From an uncultured bacterium (lineage in GTDB: Bacteria > Cyanobacteriota > Vampirovibrionia > Gastranaerophilales > Gastranaerophilaceae): a DNA stretch of 64,000 nt. The notes beneath the pieces were generated by a model that did no database searches, was not told the DNA's origin, and saw only the letters and a list, made by a program, of their open reading frames with translations. The DNA is taken from NCBI GenBank assembly GCA_949297715.1, contig CASFTJ010000008.1:1-64000 (forward strand), given 5' to 3'. The translations under genes were made by a program, and so were the position numbers. Shown piece by piece: positions 1 through 13,808 of the stretch. The number at the start of each line of letters is the position of its first letter. Position 1 is the stretch's first letter.

Positions 1-748
1 CGCTCCACTTATTCCTAAAGACATAAAATCGTATATTGAACCATTCGGTGGTGGTGGTTGGGTTTTATTTTATAAGGACAGATGGGCAGATTTAGAAATA
101 TACAACGACTTAGATGGAAGATTAGTTAATCTTTTTAGAATCGTGAAATACCATCCGAATGCATTAAAAGAAGAATTAAAATATCTTCTTGGCTCTCGTG
201 AAATGTTCTTCCAATTTTTGAATGGCACTTTTATTACAGATATTCAAAAAGCAGCACAGTTCTTGTTTTTAATAACACGTTCTTTTGGTGGTCGTGGTGA
301 TACTTTTGGAACTGTAAAAAAATCTTCAGGCGGTGCATCAAAATCTCAACGCAATGTTTTAGAAAAAATTGATGCAATCCACAAACGCCTTGATAAAGTT
401 ATGGTTGAGAATCGTGACTTTGAAAAATTGATTAAACAATACGATTTTGAAGGTGCATTTTTCTATTGCGATCCGCCGTACACTTCAGGTTGCGGTTATG
501 AAGTAACATCTACCGCAGACTTTGACCACGAACGTTTAAGAGATGTTTTAGGCAGCATCAAAGGTCGTTTTCTGCTCTCATACGATGATTCTCCAAAAGT
601 TCGAGAATTATACAAAGGCTTTGAGATGATTGAAGTTGAAAGACAGAACGGAATTAACAATCGTGAGGGTACTAGCAGGGCGAACAAGGTATATAAAGAA
701 CTGCTGATTGCTAATTACCCAATAAAAAATTTATTTAAAAATGTCTGA
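1..748 (+). CDS. D12-class DNA adenine-N6 methyltransferase (Dam-like), 5' partial
   Basis: The frame is open from base 2, so the true start lies outside the window; the GTG at 143 is internal. The visible 248 residues begin near the SAM-binding motif (EPFGGGGW, about residues 13-20) and carry the catalytic motif DPPY (bases 470-481) followed by TSG, as in the Dam/DpnM class that methylates adenine N6. The protein ends in a short basic tail. It overlaps the next gene by 8 bases (ATGTCTGA), indicating translational coupling inside a phage late operon. In phages such orphan methylases usually protect DNA from host restriction; that role is inferred. Family call is confident; target site unknown. 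Confidence 0.9.
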   Translation, partial: APLIPKDIKSYIEPFGGGGWVLFYKDRWADLEIYNDLDGRLVNLFRIVKYHPNALKEELKYLLGSREMFFQFLNGTFITDIQKAAQFLFLITRSFGGRGDTFGTVKKSSGGASKSQRNVLEKIDAIHKRLDKVMVENRDFEKLIKQYDFEGAFFYCDPPYTSGCGYEVTSTADFDHERLRDVLGSIKGRFLLSYDDSPKVRELYKGFEMIEVERQNGINNREGTSRANKVYKELLIANYPIKNLFKNV

Positions 749-1190
749 CTCGATTGAAATAAAAATTGATAACAAAGAAGTTGAATCAAGACTTCTTGAT
801 TTGGCTCAAAGAAGTGAAAACCTGCGACCGTTAATGAAAAACATCGCAGGTGTTTTCGCATATTCTACCGAAGAAAACTTTAAAGAAGAGGGAAGACCTG
901 ATAAATGGACAGATTTAGCCGAAACAACGAAAAAACAGAGAACGAAGACAGGACATTACCCTGGACAAATTTTACAAGTTTCAGGTAAACTAGCATCATC
1001 AATAAGTACATATTATGACAATGATTCAGCTGTTATTGGTTCAAATCTTGATTATGCTGCAATTCATCAGCTCGGAGGTCAAGCTGGTAAAAATCAATCT
1101 GTAACTATACCTGCAAGACCATATTTAACACTTACAGATGATAATTGCAATGAGATTTTACATAATATAAGTAAATACTTTGAAGCTTAA
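741..1190 (+). CDS. Phage virion morphogenesis / tail completion protein (Mu gpG / P2 gpS type)
   Basis: A 149-residue protein with the layout of the phage_tail_S / virion morphogenesis family: an N-terminal helical part, the central WTDLAETTKKQRTKTG region, ILQVSGKLASSI, an IHQLGGQAG segment and a C-terminal IPARPYLTL motif. Family members act in tail completion and head-tail joining. It overlaps the adenine methylase by 8 bases and is the last rightward phage gene seen. No integrase or lysis gene is in view, so this is the right edge of a prophage or a remnant. Family assignment is by motif recognition. Confidence 0.85.
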   Translation: MSDSIEIKIDNKEVESRLLDLAQRSENLRPLMKNIAGVFAYSTEENFKEEGRPDKWTDLAETTKKQRTKTGHYPGQILQVSGKLASSISTYYDNDSAVIGSNLDYAAIHQLGGQAGKNQSVTIPARPYLTLTDDNCNEILHNISKYFEA

Positions 1191-1252: not shown

Positions 1253-3529
1253 TTATTTCTGAAAACCTTTAAATAAATTTCGAATACTTTTTATATTAAA
1301 TCCAAGAAATCCTTTTTTAGGGTTTGATTTATCTTCAAATTTAGTTAGTTTAATTTTTCTTTTATTTTTAGGTATTTCTTTTTCCAAAATTAAAGGTTCA
1401 TCAATTATACTTTCTTTAATATCTGGTTCTATAATCTCATTTTGTTTTATAACAGGAATATTTACATTTTCTATTGGTTTTGGAGTGTTTAATACAGGTT
1501 TATTTTCGATAACTTGTTTTGATTTATATTTGGATACTACAAAATTGTTAGAAGTTTGATTTATTGTAACTTTAGAAGTATCTTTATTCTTTTTCTCATA
1601 TCTATTATTCAATTGTTTTGCATATTTTTTTAATTTACCTAATGCTTTATCTTCAATTTGTCTTATTCTTTCTCTTGAAACTCCATAAATCTGACCAATT
1701 TCATCTAATGTTTTTCCTTCTCCACAATTTCCTAAACCAAATCTTTTTATAATAACACTACGTTCTTTTTCTGTTAATTTACTTAAAAGATATGCCAACG
1801 TATCTAATTCTGTATAAGTTCTATTAGGTAATTTTATTTCTTCCAATAAAATATTTGATATAAAATGTTCATCATCAAATTGATATATAAAGTGATTTTT
1901 TTCGTTTTGCCAAATTGGACTGTTTGGATTTTCATAATAATCTTCAAATCCTAATATGCATCTTGGAGAATTAAATATCCTTTCAATATGTTTAGCGGTG
2001 TATTTAATTCCATTTTTATTATTTTCAGTTAGGTATTTTGCAATTTGTTGATTATTTGCATAAGGGTAATTATTAACATACTTGAAAACTTTGGAAACTA
2101 AATCTTGATAATGAACAGGATATCTAATAACTTTACCTTTATCAACTATTGCACGACCTATAGATTGTTTAATCCACCAAGTTGCAAAGGTTGAAAATCT
2201 AAAACCTTTTGTGTAATCAAATTTTTCGGCAGCTTTGCAAAGTCCGATATTACCCTCTTGAATTAAATCTAATAAAGAAAAACAATGCCGATAAATATAT
2301 TTCTTAGCTATACTGACAACAAGTCTTAAATTTGCATTTATCAAATGAATTCTAGCATAATAATCATTATTGTCCTTAATTTTTTTTGCCAGTTCTAATT
2401 CTTGTTTTTCAGATAATAGTTTAATTTGACCAATTGCATTCAAGTACCAATAAATAGGATCATCAATTGGTAATTTTTCTATTAATTCTTGGTTTCTAAC
2501 AATATTACGACTTGAATATTTTGAAATTATGTCTTTAAAATTCTGTTCAAATTCTTCAATTCCAACATCATCATTAAAATAATTTTCGTCATAATCTTCC
2601 CATTCTTCATAATTATCATCTAAATAATCAAAATCATAACCAGTTTCAGAACTGCTATATATTTTTTCCGTTTTAGTTAAATCATATTTTGTTATGTTTG
2701 TATTTTCTATTTTAATAGTAGTTTCGTTTTGCTTTTGAACAGAATTAATCACAACAGGTTTATGTTCTTGTATTTGGGGTATTTTGTTTTTTTCTTTTAC
2801 TTCAAAACTTTCTTCCTGTTTTTTAGTTTTAAGTTCAATTTTTGACTGCTCAACAGGCTCTTCTTTGGGCGGTTCAACTTGAACTTTTAGTACTAATACA
2901 GGCGGTTGTTGTGGTTCAACTTTTTTGATTTGCTGTTTTTTACCATAAATATAATCAATATTAAAAGCCATATTCAATATATTTTGTTGTTCTTCAGTAA
3001 AATTATTAGGGGTAATTCTTAAAATATTTATACTTTCTAAAACATCTTTGTCACTATCATTTTTGTTTATGCGGTGTTCTGTAAATACAAAACACAAATA
3101 TTTACCAAAAGACATTAAAATAATACTTGGGTGTGGTAATTGTCGGTTTATTTCTCCTGCAATATGTTTAATGGTTGTATCTGTGCAAATACTCGTTTTT
3201 AATTTTAAAGCAAAATAAAAGTATGCTTTATTGGCAGATTTAACTTGTGCAATATGTTTGTTGCGAAGTATTTTATTCAAATCCTCTGTTGTAAATTGAA
3301 ACAATAAATAAAATTGTTCCCACTCGGACCAATGTGCTTTTATCTTATTAAGATTGGGGCAAGCTTGATTAAATGCTTCTGGGCTTTCAAGCCCTGCAAT
3401 TTTTCTTGAAGTATCATACCCTAGATTTTCAAATAATTTAACAGCATCATTTTTTAGGTCAGCTTTATAACTGCCTAATTTATTAACTATTTTAATTAAT
3501 TGTTCTTTTTTTGATGTTTCCATTAGCAC
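1253..3529 (-). CDS. Sigma-70 family factor with N-terminal methylase-type domain and acidic linker (sigma-A copy)
   Basis: 758 residues. Residues ~10-195 form a domain shared with the next gene (motifs [12 protein letters not shown] near 32-43, [13 protein letters not shown] near 158-170). By memory it resembles the N-terminal domain of Eco57I-like DNA methyltransferases found beside SNF2 helicases. A low-complexity K/E/Q/P and D/Y/E-rich linker follows (~196-350). Residues ~357-470 are sigma regions 1.2 and 2 ([47 protein letters not shown]), and ~590-660 region 4 with the intact helix [10 protein letters not shown]. The last ~95 residues are a basic and acidic tail. The start is GTG 3529 or ATG 3523; neither has a clear Shine-Dalgarno. 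The gene lies 47 bases after its paralogue on the same strand. Sigma identity is certain; the N-domain relationship is inference. Confidence 0.85.
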
Positions 3530-3576: not shown

Positions 3577-5157
3577 TTATGAATTAGTAATTAATTCATC
3601 ATAAAATTCTTGCAAATATTCTTTGTGTTTTTTTAACTTTCTAATTGCACGAACAATAGTTTGATTTATAGATTCTCCGGAAACACCATATATTTGGCCA
3701 ATTTCATCAAGTTTCCATTGTCTACCATCTTCCAATCCGTAACGTAATTTAATAACTCTGATTTGACGTTTTGATAAAGTCTTATTAAGAATAACATTGA
3801 TTCTCTGTTTTAATTCATCAACTAAGATTTTATTAATTTCTTTCTGAAAATCAATACTGTAATTATCAAATTTTGTATGGTCTAAATAATAATACTCTTC
3901 AAATCCGATAGTACAAGTGGGAGAATTAAATAATTCCTCAATTCTTTTTTCTGACAAATTTAATTCTTTTGCAATCTCAGCACAAGTAGGTTCTTTATTA
4001 TATTTCTGGATATATTTATCTTTAAAAACAAATATTTTTCTAAAAAGTTCATTAACGTTATGTGGATAGTGAATCATTTTCCCTTTATCTGAAATAGCCC
4101 TACTTATAGAATTTTTAATTAACCAAGTTGCATAAGTTGAAAATTTGTAACCCTTAGTATAATCAAATTTGTTAATTGCTTTTATTAGACCGATATTGCC
4201 TTCTTGAATTAAATCAGAAAATGATAAACTTTTTCTGTAAATATATTTTTTAGCAATATTTATTACAAGTCTTAAATTTGCACAAATTAAAATGTTTTTT
4301 GCTTGATCTGATAATTCGGAATTATCTAAATCTTTAAAAAACATTGGTTCAAGACTTTTATCCAATATTGGATATTTACATATTTTATTTAGATACCAGT
4401 ATGTGGTATTTTCAGTCAAATTATTTAATTGTTGATTATATAGTTTTAATAACTTTTCTAAAGAATACTTTCTAGCAGCCTTTATTAATTCTTCTTCAAC
4501 TTTATCTATGCCAAAGTCGGTTTCATTTTCCTGATAACATTCTTCTATATTTGAATAGATTTCCTCTTGTTTTTTTTTGTAGGAATATTCTTTTTGTGAG
4601 AATGTGAATACATTTTTAAGGCTAAGTGTTTTAAGCTTTTTAATTTCATTATTATCAGCATTTTTACATTGAATTTTTAGCATATGTACTGATTCAAGAA
4701 TATCTTTATTTTCATCTAACTTGTTCTTACGTCTTTCGGTGTATATTAAATTTAAAAATGAACCCGAAACCACACTTATTATTGTGGGATTTGGAATTTG
4801 CTTGTTAATTTCTTTGGTAATTTGTTTAAGTTCCGTATCATTTACCAATCTATTTAATTTTATAGTGAAAAACAGTAAAAAATTGTGATAATTTTTATCA
4901 ACTGAAATATTTAAAACTTTTTGAATGTCCTGATTGGTTACCTGAAACAAAAATGCTGCATTGCTCCAAAAATTTATCATTGCTTTGTTTTTATCAAAGT
5001 CAGGAAAATATTTTTCAAATGCTTCAATCGTATTTAGATTAGAAATGCGTCTATTTGTTGGATACCCAAGAGCTTCAAACAATAAAAAAGAGTTTTCAAC
5101 AAAATCCTTGTTATAACATAAAAAATTATTTAAAATATTTTTTAGTTTAGCATTCAT
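3577..5157 (-). CDS. Divergent sigma-70 family factor with the same N-terminal domain (sigma-B copy)
   Basis: 526 residues, paralogue of the neighbouring sigma gene without its long linker and tail. The N-domain (~1-190) has LFEALGYPTNRR and ENKDILESVHML; sigma regions 1.2-2 start near 245 ([46 protein letters not shown]) and region 4 closes the protein. Normally invariant residues are changed: the WW pair used in promoter melting reads WL, the Q and T that read the -10 element are N and S, and the region 4.2 helix RERIRQ is GESINQ, losing three arginines. It may therefore read a non-standard promoter or not bind a -35 element at all. Upstream (5186-5198) lies a small dyad, TATTG-TTA-CAATA. 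The Shine-Dalgarno is weak (AAAGGT, about 13 bases upstream). Confidence 0.85.
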   Translation of the reverse strand: MNAKLKNILNNFLCYNKDFVENSFLLFEALGYPTNRRISNLNTIEAFEKYFPDFDKNKAMINFWSNAAFLFQVTNQDIQKVLNISVDKNYHNFLLFFTIKLNRLVNDTELKQITKEINKQIPNPTIISVVSGSFLNLIYTERRKNKLDENKDILESVHMLKIQCKNADNNEIKKLKTLSLKNVFTFSQKEYSYKKKQEEIYSNIEECYQENETDFGIDKVEEELIKAARKYSLEKLLKLYNQQLNNLTENTTYWYLNKICKYPILDKSLEPMFFKDLDNSELSDQAKNILICANLRLVINIAKKYIYRKSLSFSDLIQEGNIGLIKAINKFDYTKGYKFSTYATWLIKNSISRAISDKGKMIHYPHNVNELFRKIFVFKDKYIQKYNKEPTCAEIAKELNLSEKRIEELFNSPTCTIGFEEYYYLDHTKFDNYSIDFQKEINKILVDELKQRINVILNKTLSKRQIRVIKLRYGLEDGRQWKLDEIGQIYGVSGESINQTIVRAIRKLKKHKEYLQEFYDELITNS

Positions 5158-5204: not shown

Positions 5205-5392
5205 CTAAGATAAAAGAAAATCTATATCAATTATCAAGGCTTTATCATAAGTTAAATCATAAAGTTTATAAACCATTAAATCAATTTTTCTTTCACATTC
5301 TTTAAGATTTTAAATAATTCTATTGAGCTTTCATATAAATTCCCGTTTTTAAAATTCGATACTGAATTTTTTATATCATTTTTAAGCGACAT
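5205..5392 (-). pseudogene. Deletion remnant of an Eco57I-like DNA methyltransferase (N- and C-terminal tips only)
   Basis: The ATG at 5392 overlaps the helicase stop by 11 bases and opens a 38-codon frame (to 5276) reading SVSNFKNGNLYESSIELFKI, which matches in pattern the start of the N-domain in the two sigma proteins. In another frame the same stretch continues as ERKIDLMVYKLYDLT and ends in ALIIDIDFLLS at 5205, the typical C-terminal tip of Eco57I/PglX-type methylases (consensus of the type IDxxVYxLYxLT). The whole catalytic middle (NPPY, SAM motifs, target recognition) is missing, so this is a deletion junction with a frame change near 5280-5300. The overlap with the helicase indicates it was the second gene of that operon. 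The methylase identity is from remembered family patterns. Confidence 0.65.
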
Positions 5393-8300
5393 TGTTTCCC
5401 TCACTGATTATTAACCAACTGATAAGTTCAAAATCATCATCACATTTAACTTGTTCTTCCTCTGTCGGAATAAACGCACCTCTTACAAAAACATTTTTTA
5501 ATATGTCTTTTTGATAAGATTTTGTAATTTCATTAACTGAATTTTTCAAAAGTTGATTGTACACTTCCAAACCATTTTCAACTTCTAATTTTTTATTAAA
5601 TATTTCGCATAACTCTTGATAAGGAACATTTTTACCTAAACAAAGAGTTCTATAAATATCTAATATTTTCTTTCCTTTTTCAAATGATAAATATAACGAG
5701 CCATCATTCTTGATATATACAAGATAATAAGGTTGGAATTTATTTACTCGTTTATTTTCTTCTGATGAATGTTTTTGTTTCAAGCAGAAAATAATTCCTG
5801 CCGGCATACTACATTCGTTTTCCATTTTATCTGTATATTTATTGGGAATTATAGCATTTAAACCTATTGGTAATTGTTCAAGTTTATCATTCTGAGTTTT
5901 GGTATATGACATTAAATCGGTATAAAAATCTTCCATTGATATATCTGATAATGCAAAATCTTCATCTGAATCTTCAATATCTTCTAACGGTTCTTCCGCC
6001 ATTAATTTTTTTATCTGTTTTTCTCTGAATGATAATTCATTCTTCTCTGCAAATTCAAAATCTTGTTCCTCTAAAATGTAATCATCTGTTGTTGTAGTTT
6101 GGTCTGCCAATGCCATTCTCGCTTCAACACGATATTGCAGTTTAATATAATGTTCTAAATCTTGTGTGGGCCAGAAACTTATCATTTGAATTTCACTATT
6201 ATTACTTCCAATTCTATCAATACGCCCAAACCTTTGAATTAATCTTACAGGATTCCAATGAATATCATAATTTACAACAGTATCACAATCTTGTAAATTT
6301 TGACCTTCTGAAATACAATCCGTACAAATCAAAATATCAATTTGCTCGTTTGCAGAACGTGATTCTTCTAATTTCGCTTCTGGTGCAAAATTTTCCAATA
6401 TTGTATCAAATTTATCTGCTCCAAAAGTAGTCCTATTTTCGTTACCTGTAACAAGTGCAATATTTAAACCTAAGTTTTTATTAACATAATCAATCAAGGA
6501 ATTATATAAATATTCTGCAGTATCACTATAAGATGCAAATACAATTAACTTTTTATTAGTTTGTTTAGATTTATGTTCAATTAAATCTTTTAATTCTTGA
6601 AGTTTTGCATCTCTGTCTGCTGTTATTGTTAAAGCCATATTATAAATTTTTTCAATCTGTTTACGATCTTTTTTTAGTGCTTTTTTCCAAGCATCAGTAT
6701 CCAAATCTCTAATATCAAAAACTAATTTTTTACCTACTGTATAATCAATATCATCTTCATCATCTTCATAAGTGTATACCTCTTCATCATTTTTATATTC
6801 TAAAACAAAATTATCCTTAGTCTTTTCACACATTTCAATTTGTGCAAGCCTTTTATCAATATTGTTTAGAATATGCTTCATAGAAAGAGTAAATGAAGCA
6901 ATAGAACTTTCTAATCTCTTTAAAAATCCCATTTTCATCATTCCGATTAAATAATCTTCTCTTTTTTCTTGGGTCATTGTTGAACGACCTTTTTTATTGT
7001 ATTTTTCTTTGTTTCTGACTACAAAATTTGTAGGTTTATATAAAGATAGTGAATATTGTTCAATTTCGTCATTAAGTTGCTCATAAGTAGGGAATTCACC
7101 CTTTAAATCTATATGTTTATAAATTGAAAGGGGTTTCTTTCTTTTTGGTATTTTGTTCATCAAGTCATCAGATTGATAATAATTTTTAATCTGTTTACGA
7201 GAACGAGAAATTGTTAAATTAGAAAGTAAATTTACAAATTTAGCATCTAATTTTTCAAGTAATTCATCTTTATTTCTATTTTTGCTTTTTGCCCATTCAA
7301 TATATTTTTTATTTGCAACTTTAATTAAACCGCTTACACTTGGAATATCTAAATTATCTCTAAATGCATAATCATCATCTAAATCAATAAGTCTTATCTG
7401 GTTTTTTAAGTCATTTAAAGATGTATTTACAGGCGTTGCAGACAATAACAAAACTTTTGGCTGTCTTGATCCGTTTTTAATTATATCATTCATTAACTTG
7501 TCATAACGGCTTAATTTTATTATATTGCCATCTTCATCAGTTTTACTGCCTGTTGCATTTCTGAAATTGTGAGATTCATCTATTACAACTAGGTCAAAAT
7601 CCCCCCAGTCAAATTTTTTATTTTCCGCATTTTCAGAAGTAAGATCTGTGTGAGTTTTAAAATAAATTTTTAAATTATCATCTTTAAAAGGATTGTCTGC
7701 ATTTTTATCTGTATATTTTTTCCAATTATTTTCAAGTCGTTTAGGTGCTAACACTAATATGTTAGGCTTTTTAGTACAGATATAATATTGAATAACACCC
7801 AAAGCAGTAAATGTTTTACCTAAACCAACACTATCTGCCAATATACAACCGTTAAATTTATCAAGTTTTTTTACAATAGAATTAACGGCATCTTTTTGGA
7901 ATTGGAATAATTTTTGCCAAATTTTTGTTTCTGTATATTTTTTATTTGTTTCAACATTAATAAAATTTTCATCAAGCTCACCCGAAAAAATCTCATAAAG
8001 GGTTTTTAAATAAACAATTTCAGGCGAATTCTCTTTGTATAAGGTTTCTATATATTTTAAGATTTCCCTTTTGGCATCTTCTGTATTATTATTCCATAAA
8101 TCATCAAACCATTCTTTTAATTCTTTAATACCCTGTTTACTGTCTAAAATAGTATTTAACTCATAATTAGAACATTCATTGATTCCTAAACCGCTGCTTG
8201 TAAAATTGGAACTTCCAACAATCGCATCAACAACTCCACGAGGATTATTGTCTTGTTCTATATAATACATTTTTCCATGGATCAAGGTTTTATGATTTTC

Positions 8301-8672
8301 TTTTTTAGGTGCAGTTCTAACTTGAACATTAGATGATTTTAACCAATTATAACATTCTTTTGCTATTTTATTCTGTGTAATTGCCTTATCAAGTGAAATA
8401 TTTTCATCTTGGATTTTAAAAACTTTAAGTCTTTTGTCTTTTAAACCCAAATTTTCAATTGATGACGGTTCTCCAAGTATAAAGTTAGTGTGAGCAACTT
8501 TTTCTGTTAATTCATCCTTTAAATTATTAAAAGCATAAATTGTAAAATATGCAGATACTATATTGAGATTAGACTTTATCCCGATATTAAAATTTTTGTC
8601 TATTTTATCCTTTAAAAAATCAACCACTTTTTTATTTACTGAATTGTCAAGAATTGTAGTTTCGTCTGCCAT
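5382..8672 (-). CDS. PLD-domain SNF2-type DEAD/DEAH helicase, restriction/defence associated
   Basis: 1096 residues. The N-terminal ~170 residues form a phospholipase-D-like nuclease domain with HGKMYY (H132, K134) and GSSNFTSSGLG (~153-163). The SF2/SNF2 motor follows: QFQKDAV (Q motif, ~257), GLGKT Walker A (283-287), DESH (365-368), SATPVN (motif III), ICTDCISEGQNLQ and QRFGRIDRIG (motif VI). The C-terminal ~220 residues are uncharacterised. The start ATG 8672 has AAGGGG 6 bases upstream. Such helicases usually sit next to an Eco57I-like methylase as a restriction-type anti-phage module; here that partner is only a remnant. In place of an intact modification gene, two sigma-like genes follow on the same strand. 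Acts on DNA in the cytoplasm; substrate unknown. Confidence 0.9.
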   Translation of the reverse strand: MADETTILDNSVNKKVVDFLKDKIDKNFNIGIKSNLNIVSAYFTIYAFNNLKDELTEKVAHTNFILGEPSSIENLGLKDKRLKVFKIQDENISLDKAITQNKIAKECYNWLKSSNVQVRTAPKKENHKTLIHGKMYYIEQDNNPRGVVDAIVGSSNFTSSGLGINECSNYELNTILDSKQGIKELKEWFDDLWNNNTEDAKREILKYIETLYKENSPEIVYLKTLYEIFSGELDENFINVETNKKYTETKIWQKLFQFQKDAVNSIVKKLDKFNGCILADSVGLGKTFTALGVIQYYICTKKPNILVLAPKRLENNWKKYTDKNADNPFKDDNLKIYFKTHTDLTSENAENKKFDWGDFDLVVIDESHNFRNATGSKTDEDGNIIKLSRYDKLMNDIIKNGSRQPKVLLLSATPVNTSLNDLKNQIRLIDLDDDYAFRDNLDIPSVSGLIKVANKKYIEWAKSKNRNKDELLEKLDAKFVNLLSNLTISRSRKQIKNYYQSDDLMNKIPKRKKPLSIYKHIDLKGEFPTYEQLNDEIEQYSLSLYKPTNFVVRNKEKYNKKGRSTMTQEKREDYLIGMMKMGFLKRLESSIASFTLSMKHILNNIDKRLAQIEMCEKTKDNFVLEYKNDEEVYTYEDDEDDIDYTVGKKLVFDIRDLDTDAWKKALKKDRKQIEKIYNMALTITADRDAKLQELKDLIEHKSKQTNKKLIVFASYSDTAEYLYNSLIDYVNKNLGLNIALVTGNENRTTFGADKFDTILENFAPEAKLEESRSANEQIDILICTDCISEGQNLQDCDTVVNYDIHWNPVRLIQRFGRIDRIGSNNSEIQMISFWPTQDLEHYIKLQYRVEARMALADQTTTTDDYILEEQDFEFAEKNELSFREKQIKKLMAEEPLEDIEDSDEDFALSDISMEDFYTDLMSYTKTQNDKLEQLPIGLNAIIPNKYTDKMENECSMPAGIIFCLKQKHSSEENKRVNKFQPYYLVYIKNDGSLYLSFEKGKKILDIYRTLCLGKNVPYQELCEIFNKKLEVENGLEVYNQLLKNSVNEITKSYQKDILKNVFVRGAFIPTEEEQVKCDDDFELISWLIISEGNNVA

Positions 8673-8855
8673 TCTAACCCCTTATTTTCATCACTTCTGA
8701 TATCTTTTATATTACCATGAATAATTTATTTTATTTATACAATTAATATACGTTACAACTATGTCATATTCGGACATGATATTTATTTTTGGTTTTAATT
8801 TGGTAGCAACTCAAAGTGCGTAATTAAGTCTTACTACAAAGATAGAGAAAAACAT

Positions 8856-8866
8856 GGGGGGGGGGG
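8856..8866. repeat. Homopolymeric G11 tract
   Basis: Eleven consecutive G in an otherwise strongly AT-rich intergenic stretch, 184 bases upstream of the helicase start. G/C homopolymers of this length are classic slippage-prone phase-variation tracts, but here no open frame covers it; it could alter promoter spacing or be an assembly artefact. The rest of 8673-8928 shows no gene. Confidence 0.6.
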
Positions 8867-11103: not shown

Positions 11104-11898
11104 ATGGAAAATAAAAAAGAATATCACATATTGAGCTTGAGTGGTGGAAAAGATTCCACTGCTCTTGCTTTTTTTATGAAAGATAACATGCCGGAGATTT
11201 TTAAAAATTTAAAGCTTGTATTTTTTGATACAGAATGCGATTTGTCAGAGACTTATGAATACTTAAATAAAATAGAAATGTACTTAAATAAAAAAATAGA
11301 ATATATTAAACCGGAATTAAGTTTTGAGCAATTGTATCAAATATATAAATTCATTCCTTCGATTCGATATCGTTGGTGTACAACAGGAATGAAAACAAAT
11401 CCATTCAGAAAATATATGAATAAATTAATTAACGAATACAATGCACAAAAAATACATCTATATGTAGGAATTCGTTCTGATGAACCAACTCGTATAGAAA
11501 AATATCAAAAACAACACATTGAAACAGATGATGGTGTTTTAAAAACTCATTATCCGCTAGCAGAACATGGGCTTATAAAACAAGACGTTTTTGATATTTT
11601 AACAAACAGCGGAATTGGTTTTCCTGAATATTATAAGTGGCGTTCTCGTTCAGGATGTTATTTTTGCTTTTTTCAAAAAAAGATTGAATGGATTAATTTA
11701 TTAGAAAGACACCCTAAATTATTTGAAAAAGCTTTATATTTTGAGAAAATTGGAGGTAAAAATTTTACTTGGTGCCAAGATATGTCTTTAGAAGAATTGA
11801 TGAAACCTGAAATTATCGAAAAAATTAAAAATAAATATTTACAGAAAAATAATAAAAATATTGAATTACGAAATAATTTAATTAAATTAATGGAATAA
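11104..11898 (+). CDS. PAPS-reductase/DndC-like PP-loop ATPase-family protein
   Basis: 264 residues with the N-type ATP pyrophosphatase loop SGGKDS (residues ~15-20), the FFDTECDLSETYEY segment typical of PAPS reductases, WCTTGMKTNPF (~99-109), and a C-terminal SGCYFCFFQ cysteine motif as in DndC-like proteins rather than true assimilatory reductases. The start is preceded by GAGGAG. No assimilatory sulphate genes are nearby. It follows a poorly characterised winged-helix protein and lies in an accessory/defence neighbourhood, so a role in nucleic-acid sulphur modification or defence is plausible but unproven. Its 3' end overlaps by 12 bases the convergent phospholipase-D frame. Confidence 0.8.
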   Translation: MENKKEYHILSLSGGKDSTALAFFMKDNMPEIFKNLKLVFFDTECDLSETYEYLNKIEMYLNKKIEYIKPELSFEQLYQIYKFIPSIRYRWCTTGMKTNPFRKYMNKLINEYNAQKIHLYVGIRSDEPTRIEKYQKQHIETDDGVLKTHYPLAEHGLIKQDVFDILTNSGIGFPEYYKWRSRSGCYFCFFQKKIEWINLLERHPKLFEKALYFEKIGGKNFTWCQDMSLEELMKPEIIEKIKNKYLQKNNKNIELRNNLIKLME

Positions 11899-12696
11899 AA
11901 ATTTTTTTGTACATTTGCAATCAATATCATCTATATCTTTAACCCCATCGTGGTCATTATCAACACCATCATAACAAGACCCAATAGAATCTTTTGATTC
12001 TGCTTTTGGGTCTTTTCTCAACCATTTATTAGGAATAGAATCCCATAGATAGAAAAATTCTTTTTTAAATTCTTTTGCTAGCTCTTCATTTTCTATTATT
12101 AACGTGTTTTCATCATTTCTGTTTTCTGCCGCATTGGTCCAATTCATTGAAGCTATGATTAAATATTTATCATCAATAATTGCTGATTTCATATGCATCT
12201 TTCCAACCCAGTTTTCAGTTTTAACTTTTATGCCATTATGTCTTAATTCCCAATGTCTTGAAAACTGATTATGTGCAGAGTTTGCGTCTAAAATAACAAA
12301 AACCTTTACTCCTCTTTTTTTAGCTCTTATTAAACTGTTTATAACTTCTTTATGAGTTAAATAAAATATAGGAGTATAAATTGATACTTTAGCATTATCA
12401 ATTAGTGGAACTATTTTAGTATTTATAGCTTTATTTTGAGGCAAAAAATATATTGAAACTTTTGTTTTATCATTTAAAATTATATTTTCATTGTTAGGGA
12501 TTGTTTTTTTGCTTAAATGGAATTTACCCTCATTATACATTTGATTAAATTCTTGGTTATAAATATTGGCTACTTTTTTGGATTTTATTAAAACTGAATT
12601 ATTTGCATTATAAGTCATACAGTTTTCTGAAATATTTGTAGAACCTGTCCAAACATAAGAATTATCAACTACAAAGAATTTATCGTGCATTATCAT
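11887..12696 (-). pseudogene. C-terminal half of a secreted SNase-PLD protein (two HKD half-sites)
   Basis: 269 residues continuing the protein encoded by 12759-13808 in a different frame. It has HDKFFVVDNSYVWTGSTN (first HxKxxxxD site) and HMKSAIIDDKYLIIASMNWT (second site), so the joined protein carries both catalytic halves of a phospholipase-D/Nuc-type nuclease. The C-terminus SCYDGVDNDHDGVKDIDDID is an Asp-rich calcium-binding-like repeat. The frame stays open upstream of the ATG at 12696 as far as the T9 run at 12771-12779, which is where the two parts separate. Listed apart because an annotation without frameshift correction will show two genes. Confidence 0.7.
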
Positions 12697-12758
12697 ACTT
12701 CTAATATCAAAATCATCAGTACTAAATCTTTTTCCGTATTTTTCTATTTTTTCTCGTT

Positions 12759-13808
12759 CTATTTTCTCAGTTTTTTTTTATCTTCATAGTAATCAGTTTT
12801 AACAGTTTTTAAAGTACTAATCAAATTTTGTGTATCTTTGTAAATATTAATATCGTAAATATCCTTGTCTGTTATACCTTGTACAACTACTCCTCTTTTT
12901 TGAGCATTAATTAATGCATCCATTAAATCATCTTCACCTGAAAATCCATAAATAGCAAAATTTATTGATGTTTTTGCAGTGTTTATTAATGATAAAAGAC
13001 TTGCAGTAATTTCATTTACGGAATTATTTTGAGGCAGTTTAAAACGTAATGGATCAACAAAAAATATTTTAATGTCACCTTCTTTCATTTCTGAAAGATT
13101 GTAATAATTAATTTTTTGTGGAGGCAATGGAGCGTCATCAAAACAACAGGATGCTTTTTCAAAGTTTTTAACTTGATTTCTATCGAAAATTTCACTTTGA
13201 GTTGCTAACCAACCGTACTTGCAGTTTATTTTATGATATTTCCCATTTTTTTTATTTAATATAACCAAATCGAGCTTATGTGATTTTTTCACATAAGCTT
13301 TTAATTTATTTAAATTCTCATAAGGTTTTAATTGAACTGCAAGGTTAGATTTTGTATAAATTGCTGCAAGTCCTGCCTTTAAAACTTCTTCCTCATAGTT
13401 CTTGCATTTGCCATCTTTATTGCAATTATAATATATTGACATCAAGTGTCTATTATTTTTATCAAACTTTTCTTCTGCGGTATATTCTGCTTTTACAGGT
13501 TTATTCAACAGTTCCTTTTTCGCAAATTCTTTTCCGTAATAGCCCAAACCAAGTGCTTCGTCTTGCGATAAACCATAAAGTTTCATTTGCCATTCTAAAC
13601 CGTCATTTAATTTAGTTTCAAAGGTATCAATTCCATTAATGCGAACTTTTTCGTTTTGCTCGGGAATTCCGTTTTCGTTAAAGTCAATATATACAGTATC
13701 ACCATCAATAACCTTGATAACTTTATGGGAACTTACTTCAGCAGATGCAAGATTTACACTTAATGTTAATGTGAATAGTATAGAGATAATTATTTCTTTT
13801 TTCATCAA
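12759..13808 (-). CDS. Secreted thermonuclease (SNase) with zinc-ribbon-like and PLD N-half, frameshifted at its 3' end
   Basis: 349 residues. Signal peptide ~1-23, then a staphylococcal-nuclease fold: VIDGDTVYID, VRINGIDTFETK (catalytic R and D/E) and NNRHLMSIYY (second R). Residues ~180-225 carry KYHKINCKYGW and ASCC, the cysteine/histidine motif that often follows secreted thermonucleases. From ~245 a PLD N-half begins (SINFAIYGFSGEDDLMDALI). The frame leaves the PLD sequence after KTDYYEDKKK in an A9 run (minus strand) and stops at 12759; a one-base change joins it to 11887-12696, giving SNase-PLD-PLD of ~640 residues. It would degrade extracellular nucleic acid. The split may be slippage, decay or a read error. 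Confidence 0.75.
   Translation of the reverse strand: MMKKEIIISILFTLTLSVNLASAEVSSHKVIKVIDGDTVYIDFNENGIPEQNEKVRINGIDTFETKLNDGLEWQMKLYGLSQDEALGLGYYGKEFAKKELLNKPVKAEYTAEEKFDKNNRHLMSIYYNCNKDGKCKNYEEEVLKAGLAAIYTKSNLAVQLKPYENLNKLKAYVKKSHKLDLVILNKKNGKYHKINCKYGWLATQSEIFDRNQVKNFEKASCCFDDAPLPPQKINYYNLSEMKEGDIKIFFVDPLRFKLPQNNSVNEITASLLSLINTAKTSINFAIYGFSGEDDLMDALINAQKRGVVVQGITDKDIYDINIYKDTQNLISTLKTVKTDYYEDKKKLRK

Follow-up and report, generated by a model that had tools for sequence, protein, structure and literature searches.

Scar of a deleted Eco57I-type methylase gene in a PLD-SNF2 helicase locus of Gastranaerophilaceae and the apparent exchange of the methylase for DUF4391-like sigma-70 fusions

Described systems closest to the locus

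Sparing their own DNA is a need of restriction systems that is usually met by methylation. The closest described relatives of the locus analyzed here combine a PLD (HKD)-SNF2 helicase-nuclease with a DUF4391 domain and a DNA methylase (PADLOC C3a139/PLD_Helicase) and were represented in our comparison by the genomes G002, G064 and G338 and by about 70 named loci. The locus in the window (the whole stretch of 64,000 nucleotides that was analyzed, from a gut-type bacterium) shares with them the helicase-nuclease, the adjacent domain and the gene order, but carries sigma-70 proteins in the place of the methylase. Its genes are:

1253..3529, minus strand: sigB, 758 aa, methylase-type N-terminal domain (NTD) fused to sigma-70 regions 1.2, 2 and 4 (Pfam)
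3577..5157, minus strand: sigA, 526 aa, methylase-type NTD fused to sigma-70 regions 2, 3 and 4 (Pfam)
5382..8672, minus strand: PLD-SNF2 helicase-nuclease, 1096 aa (Pfam PLDc_2, SNF2-rel_dom, Helicase_C)

Judged by sequence, the locus is a descendant of the PLD-SNF2 restriction-like loci that lacks their methylase: its helicase joins a PLD nuclease to an SNF2 core and has intact motifs, the DUF4391-like domain of the adjacent gene is supplied by the NTDs of sigA and sigB, and of the DNA methylase only the two ends remain. The defence gene set of the MZA anti-phage system likewise includes a sigma-70 factor, MzaA, whose N-terminal region is long. However, the two sigma proteins of the window scored 213 and 225 bits, over the sigma core only, against the MzaA equivalog (NCBIfam cut-off 800 bits), and none of the MutL-like, Z1 and AIPR genes of MZA was seen at the loci read. 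In DISARM (DrmD), Dpd (DpdE) and BREX type 3 (BrxHII) a DNA methylase or modification accompanies a RapA-like SNF2 helicase; these systems have neither the PLD-DUF4391 pair nor a sigma factor; the window helicase reached 160 bits with the DrmD equivalog, the cut-off of which is 610 bits. Nuclease-dead Cas12f proteins, which are RNA-guided, are paired with sigma factors and thus also join a DNA-targeting defence protein to a sigma factor, while the system in the window is protein-only and retains its nuclease motifs.

The helicase-nuclease matched PADLOC C3a139 'HKD+Snf2' with an E value of 2e-120, and the motifs HxK...GSSNF, GLGKT, DESH and QRFGRIDR are retained in all six Gastranaerophilales sigma-type helicases. 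Its dN/dS was 0.075 (window-G468) and 0.092 (window-G099), compared to 0.077 in methylase-paired kin, all of these being rough values on account of high dS. Strong purifying selection acts on this apparently active nuclease-helicase, to which no methylase is linked. The preliminary description had considered loss of nuclease activity as one way to tolerate the missing methylase, which is not supported: the PLD motif (HGK...GSSNF), Walker A, DESH and motif VI are all intact in the window, and the PLD region has a similarly rough dN/dS of about 0.05-0.07 in sigma-type pairs and 0.04 in methylase-paired kin. Among viral contigs, helicase relatives occurred on 28, and a single-protein query, which finds close relatives only, detected no relative of sigB.

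Remnant of a methylase gene

Downstream of the helicase gene, the segment 5205-5392 (minus strand) consists of two overlapping pieces:

5276..5392, minus strand: left piece, first ~30 methylase codons, then a frameshift (N-terminus profile; nearest G338/G002)
5205..5309, minus strand: right piece, methylase C-terminal tip in another frame (C-terminus profile; 17/29 versus G338)

The left piece is a 38-codon ORF (5392-5276, minus strand, frame 1 from 5392) reading MSLKNDIKNSVSNFKNGNLYESSIELFKILKNVKEKLI up to its stop codon, and the tip, in frame 3 of the same strand, reads NLKECERKIDLMVYKLYDLTYDKALIIDIDFLLS before the stop that ends at 5205. A profile of the methylase C-terminus matched 5208-5309(-) with E = 6.3e-9; of the window's 2461 six-frame segments, no other gave a significant match. 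The N-terminus profile matched 5279-5407(-) over positions 2-31 with E = 0.0011, ending right before the 'LGY' motif. Taken alone, this match is modest; among the six-frame segments only the N-termini of sigA and sigB scored higher. For both pieces the nearest methylases are those of the relatives G338 and G002, with identities of 17/29 and 15/29 for the C-terminal tip and 11/27 and 12/27 for the N-terminal end, respectively.

The preliminary description had read this segment as a scar where a deletion brought both ends of a methylase gene together and removed the catalytic core, a reading which requires a homologue carrying the two pieces at opposite ends of one protein. Precisely this is found in G002, G064 and G338, where the counterparts are the ends of a single methylase of 1172-1175 aa encoded directly downstream of the PLD-SNF2 helicase, and about 1,100 codons are gone between them in the window. 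The comparison with these relatives hence shows that ~3.3 kb of an Eco57I-type methylase gene were deleted, with the 188-bp segment as the scar; the gene formerly had its place between those of the PLD-SNF2 helicase-nuclease and of the two sigma-70 proteins. An overlap at the junction, CTTA where ATCTTA meets AAGAATG, is only plausible. In the window's own genome, which is 99.6% complete, no intact Eco57I-type methylase was found apart from a weak 277-aa match; away from the locus it encodes one HsdM-like and one N6/N4 methylase, either of which might be a candidate for self-protection.

Sigma-70 proteins with a methylase-type N-terminal domain

The NTDs of sigA and sigB matched the methylase NTD of G002 in BLAST with E values of 5e-19 and 1e-20, and among the sigma proteins compared the NTDs of ~190 residues share 29-35% identity with the methylase N-terminus (E 1e-14 to 1e-20). 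Profile comparison of sigma and methylase NTDs gave a probability of 100, with the window's sigma rows contained in both alignments. The sigB NTD moreover matched DUF4391 (E 4e-6), and its predicted model (pLDDT 93) had no match at E <= 0.001 among solved and viral structures. At the level of sequence these comparisons establish that the sigma and methylase NTDs are homologous and DUF4391-like. Sigma-70 regions 2 and 4 are present in both window proteins (Pfam) and in homologues. With the RpoD C-terminal model, these two proteins scored 204 and 195 bits, below the cut-off of 354, while the true RpoD of the genome, at C7, reached 391 bits. Region 4.2 of sigA has a degenerate -35 helix (SGESINQTI), by which its promoter recognition looks impaired, and the -35 helix of sigB is near-canonical. 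The dN/dS of the sigma core (0.28-0.36) is above that of the helicase and about like that of the methylase (0.28), again as rough values. The other proposal of the preliminary description, that the sigma proteins compensate for the lost methylase, stands as far as architecture is concerned: they fill the methylase's place, since their NTD is that of the methylase and they hold the same position in other genomes without a scar.

A survey of helicase partners covered about 90 loci, among them 80 named ones from many phyla. Downstream of the helicase, the named loci have a separate DUF4391-like gene (41), an NTD-methylase (29), a cut NTD (4) or an NTD-sigma (1), with no call for 5. In the survey as a whole, a DUF4391-like domain recognized by homology is in nearly all cases encoded next to the helicase, either on its own or at the N-terminal end of a methylase, which shows it to be the helicase's constant partner. 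Genome searches yielded nine NTD-sigma proteins in eight genomes, namely the Gastranaerophilales G000 (twice), G099, G121, G419, G468 and G472, and G526 and G688, 7.3-Mb genomes of the same phylum that from their size and position are presumed cyanobacteria and in which the protein has 1882 aa and a C-terminal STAND/AAA-like ATPase. These counts come from genome draws that overlap one another and from many loci in draft assemblies. The contig of G419 matches the named locus L024 ('Candidatus Gastranaerophilales bacterium isolate BRZ_SF__bin12'). All NTD-sigma genes lie directly downstream of the helicase, the first one of the window being separated by the scar, and none was found away from a helicase in the genomes searched; a search of plasmids gave no relative of the cyanobacterial NTD. 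Methylase-less loci of helicase and NTD-sigma thus recur in eight genomes, and the state seen in the window is not a one-off loss. A short match right after the helicase stop in G468, AATGTCGGTTAAGAATG, was left unused as a remnant of the methylase start because an old helicase C-terminus explains it equally well. Unusual architectures were observed in a 1572-aa sigma protein with TPRs and alpha-CTD-like repeats after the sigma core (L019:6530-11245, minus strand) and in one of 991 aa with alpha-CTD-like repeats in that position (L115:245-3217, minus strand). The open-licence literature in PubMed Central contained no paper on sigma-fused DUF4391 or on Gastranaerophilales sigma factors, which is weak evidence of novelty.

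In trees of the NTD, the Gastranaerophilales sigma NTDs form one clade (support 0.999) and those of G526 and G688 fall among the methylase NTDs; the helicases of the latter two group with a methylase-type locus of Phormidesmis (0.89). AU tests, with one constrained search each, rejected a single origin for the NTD (p 0.0002) and for the helicase (p 2e-5). Apparently, the methylase was exchanged for an NTD-sigma independently in Gastranaerophilales and in cyanobacteria. Since the methylase-type helicases of G002 and G338 are nested inside the Gastranaerophilales sigma-type helicases, methylase and sigma probably occurred together in an ancestor. The scar fits such coexistence, and so does a 171-aa stand-alone copy of the C-terminal repeat of the G419 sigma protein (44% identity, E 6e-40), which is encoded in the methylase locus of G338 (L118:10654-11166, plus strand). 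It is also possible that the methylase was acquired by recombination and later lost.

Possible roles of the sigma factors

The comparisons show that the locus derives from a restriction-like set of a helicase and a DUF4391-like domain, the latter alone or as methylase N-terminus, and that this domain became joined to a sigma-70 factor, which took the position of an absent or lost methylase. Gene order and domain exchange suggest that the NTD docks cargo on the helicase; through sigma, an active translocase-nuclease would therefore be tied to the RNA polymerase holoenzyme and to promoter DNA, and transcription initiation, instead of site methylation, would set target choice and self-protection. 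For the reading that comprises the scar, the restriction-like descent, the replacement of the methylase by NTD-sigma and the tethering of the helicase to RNA polymerase and promoter DNA, we estimate a probability of roughly 0.55. More tentative, and rather to be doubted than assumed, is its extension to a sigma-guided restriction-like machine, in which a sigma-70 factor, docked via the same DUF4391-like domain, took over at least twice from the methylase that served sequence recognition and self-marking, and the nuclease-translocase acts at transcription initiation without DNA modification. Self-damage could be avoided by a transcription-linked trigger, activation upon infection only, an unlinked methylase or lost target recognition, all of which are possible. 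As the same swap occurred separately in cyanobacteria, a DNA cutter may be wired to RNA polymerase, and the two independent origins constitute a natural experiment; the window's scar would be a fossil from the methylase-plus-sigma state. If true, immunity would be linked directly to RNA polymerase, and the DUF4391-like domain would be an adaptor that can be exchanged. A sigma-guided machine would be new as a category.

Two other functional explanations appear unlikely to us, to a similar degree. By analogy to the nuclease-dead Cas12f proteins paired with sigma factors, the helicase may have been exapted and, no longer restricting, may together with NTD-sigma remodel in the manner of RapA or activate transcription at specific loci, as its distantly RapA-like core and the near-canonical -35 helix kept in sigB would suggest; against this, the PLD nuclease motif is intact and the low dN/dS of its region is near that in methylase-paired kin. 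Alternatively, the helicase complex might sense foreign DNA or damage and release or activate NTD-sigma, which would turn on further genes for defence or stress; sigma would then be a regulator downstream of the helicase with no part in targeting. The sensor- or adaptor-like parts on sigma proteins of relatives (TPR, alpha-CTD-like repeats and, in G526 and G688, the STAND/AAA ATPase) and the sigma factor of MZA agree with such signalling, although the sharing of a domain with the methylase points to a like structural role within the complex more than to signalling.

Far less probable than either is a decaying locus, where chance removed the methylase, what is left has no function or is selfish, and the sigma genes are neighbours without any relation to it. 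A truly broken gene and the degenerate region 4.2 of sigA would agree with this, but the homology of the sigma NTDs to the methylase NTD, the recurrence of the arrangement in eight genomes with two origins, and the open helicase frames with a dN/dS of 0.075 all speak against it.

Further features were observed around these genes. Upstream of the helicase gene lies:

8709..8721, minus strand: extended -10-like element, TTCATGGTAATAT (by-eye comparison)

A similar candidate element, TGnTAnnAT, was seen by eye upstream of 8/8 helicase genes compared, sigma-type and methylase-type alike. Upstream of the element in the window, an 11-base G/C homopolymer (8856-8866) stands out in the AT-rich genome and could be phase-variable. 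At 11887-13808 (minus strand) an SNase-PLD gene is split into two frames at a poly-A run; an intact homologue of 596 aa adjoins the helicase of G099 in divergent orientation. A phage-type Dam methylase and a neck/tail-completion gene (2-1190, plus strand), immediately next to sigB where the contig ends, mark the edge of a prophage.
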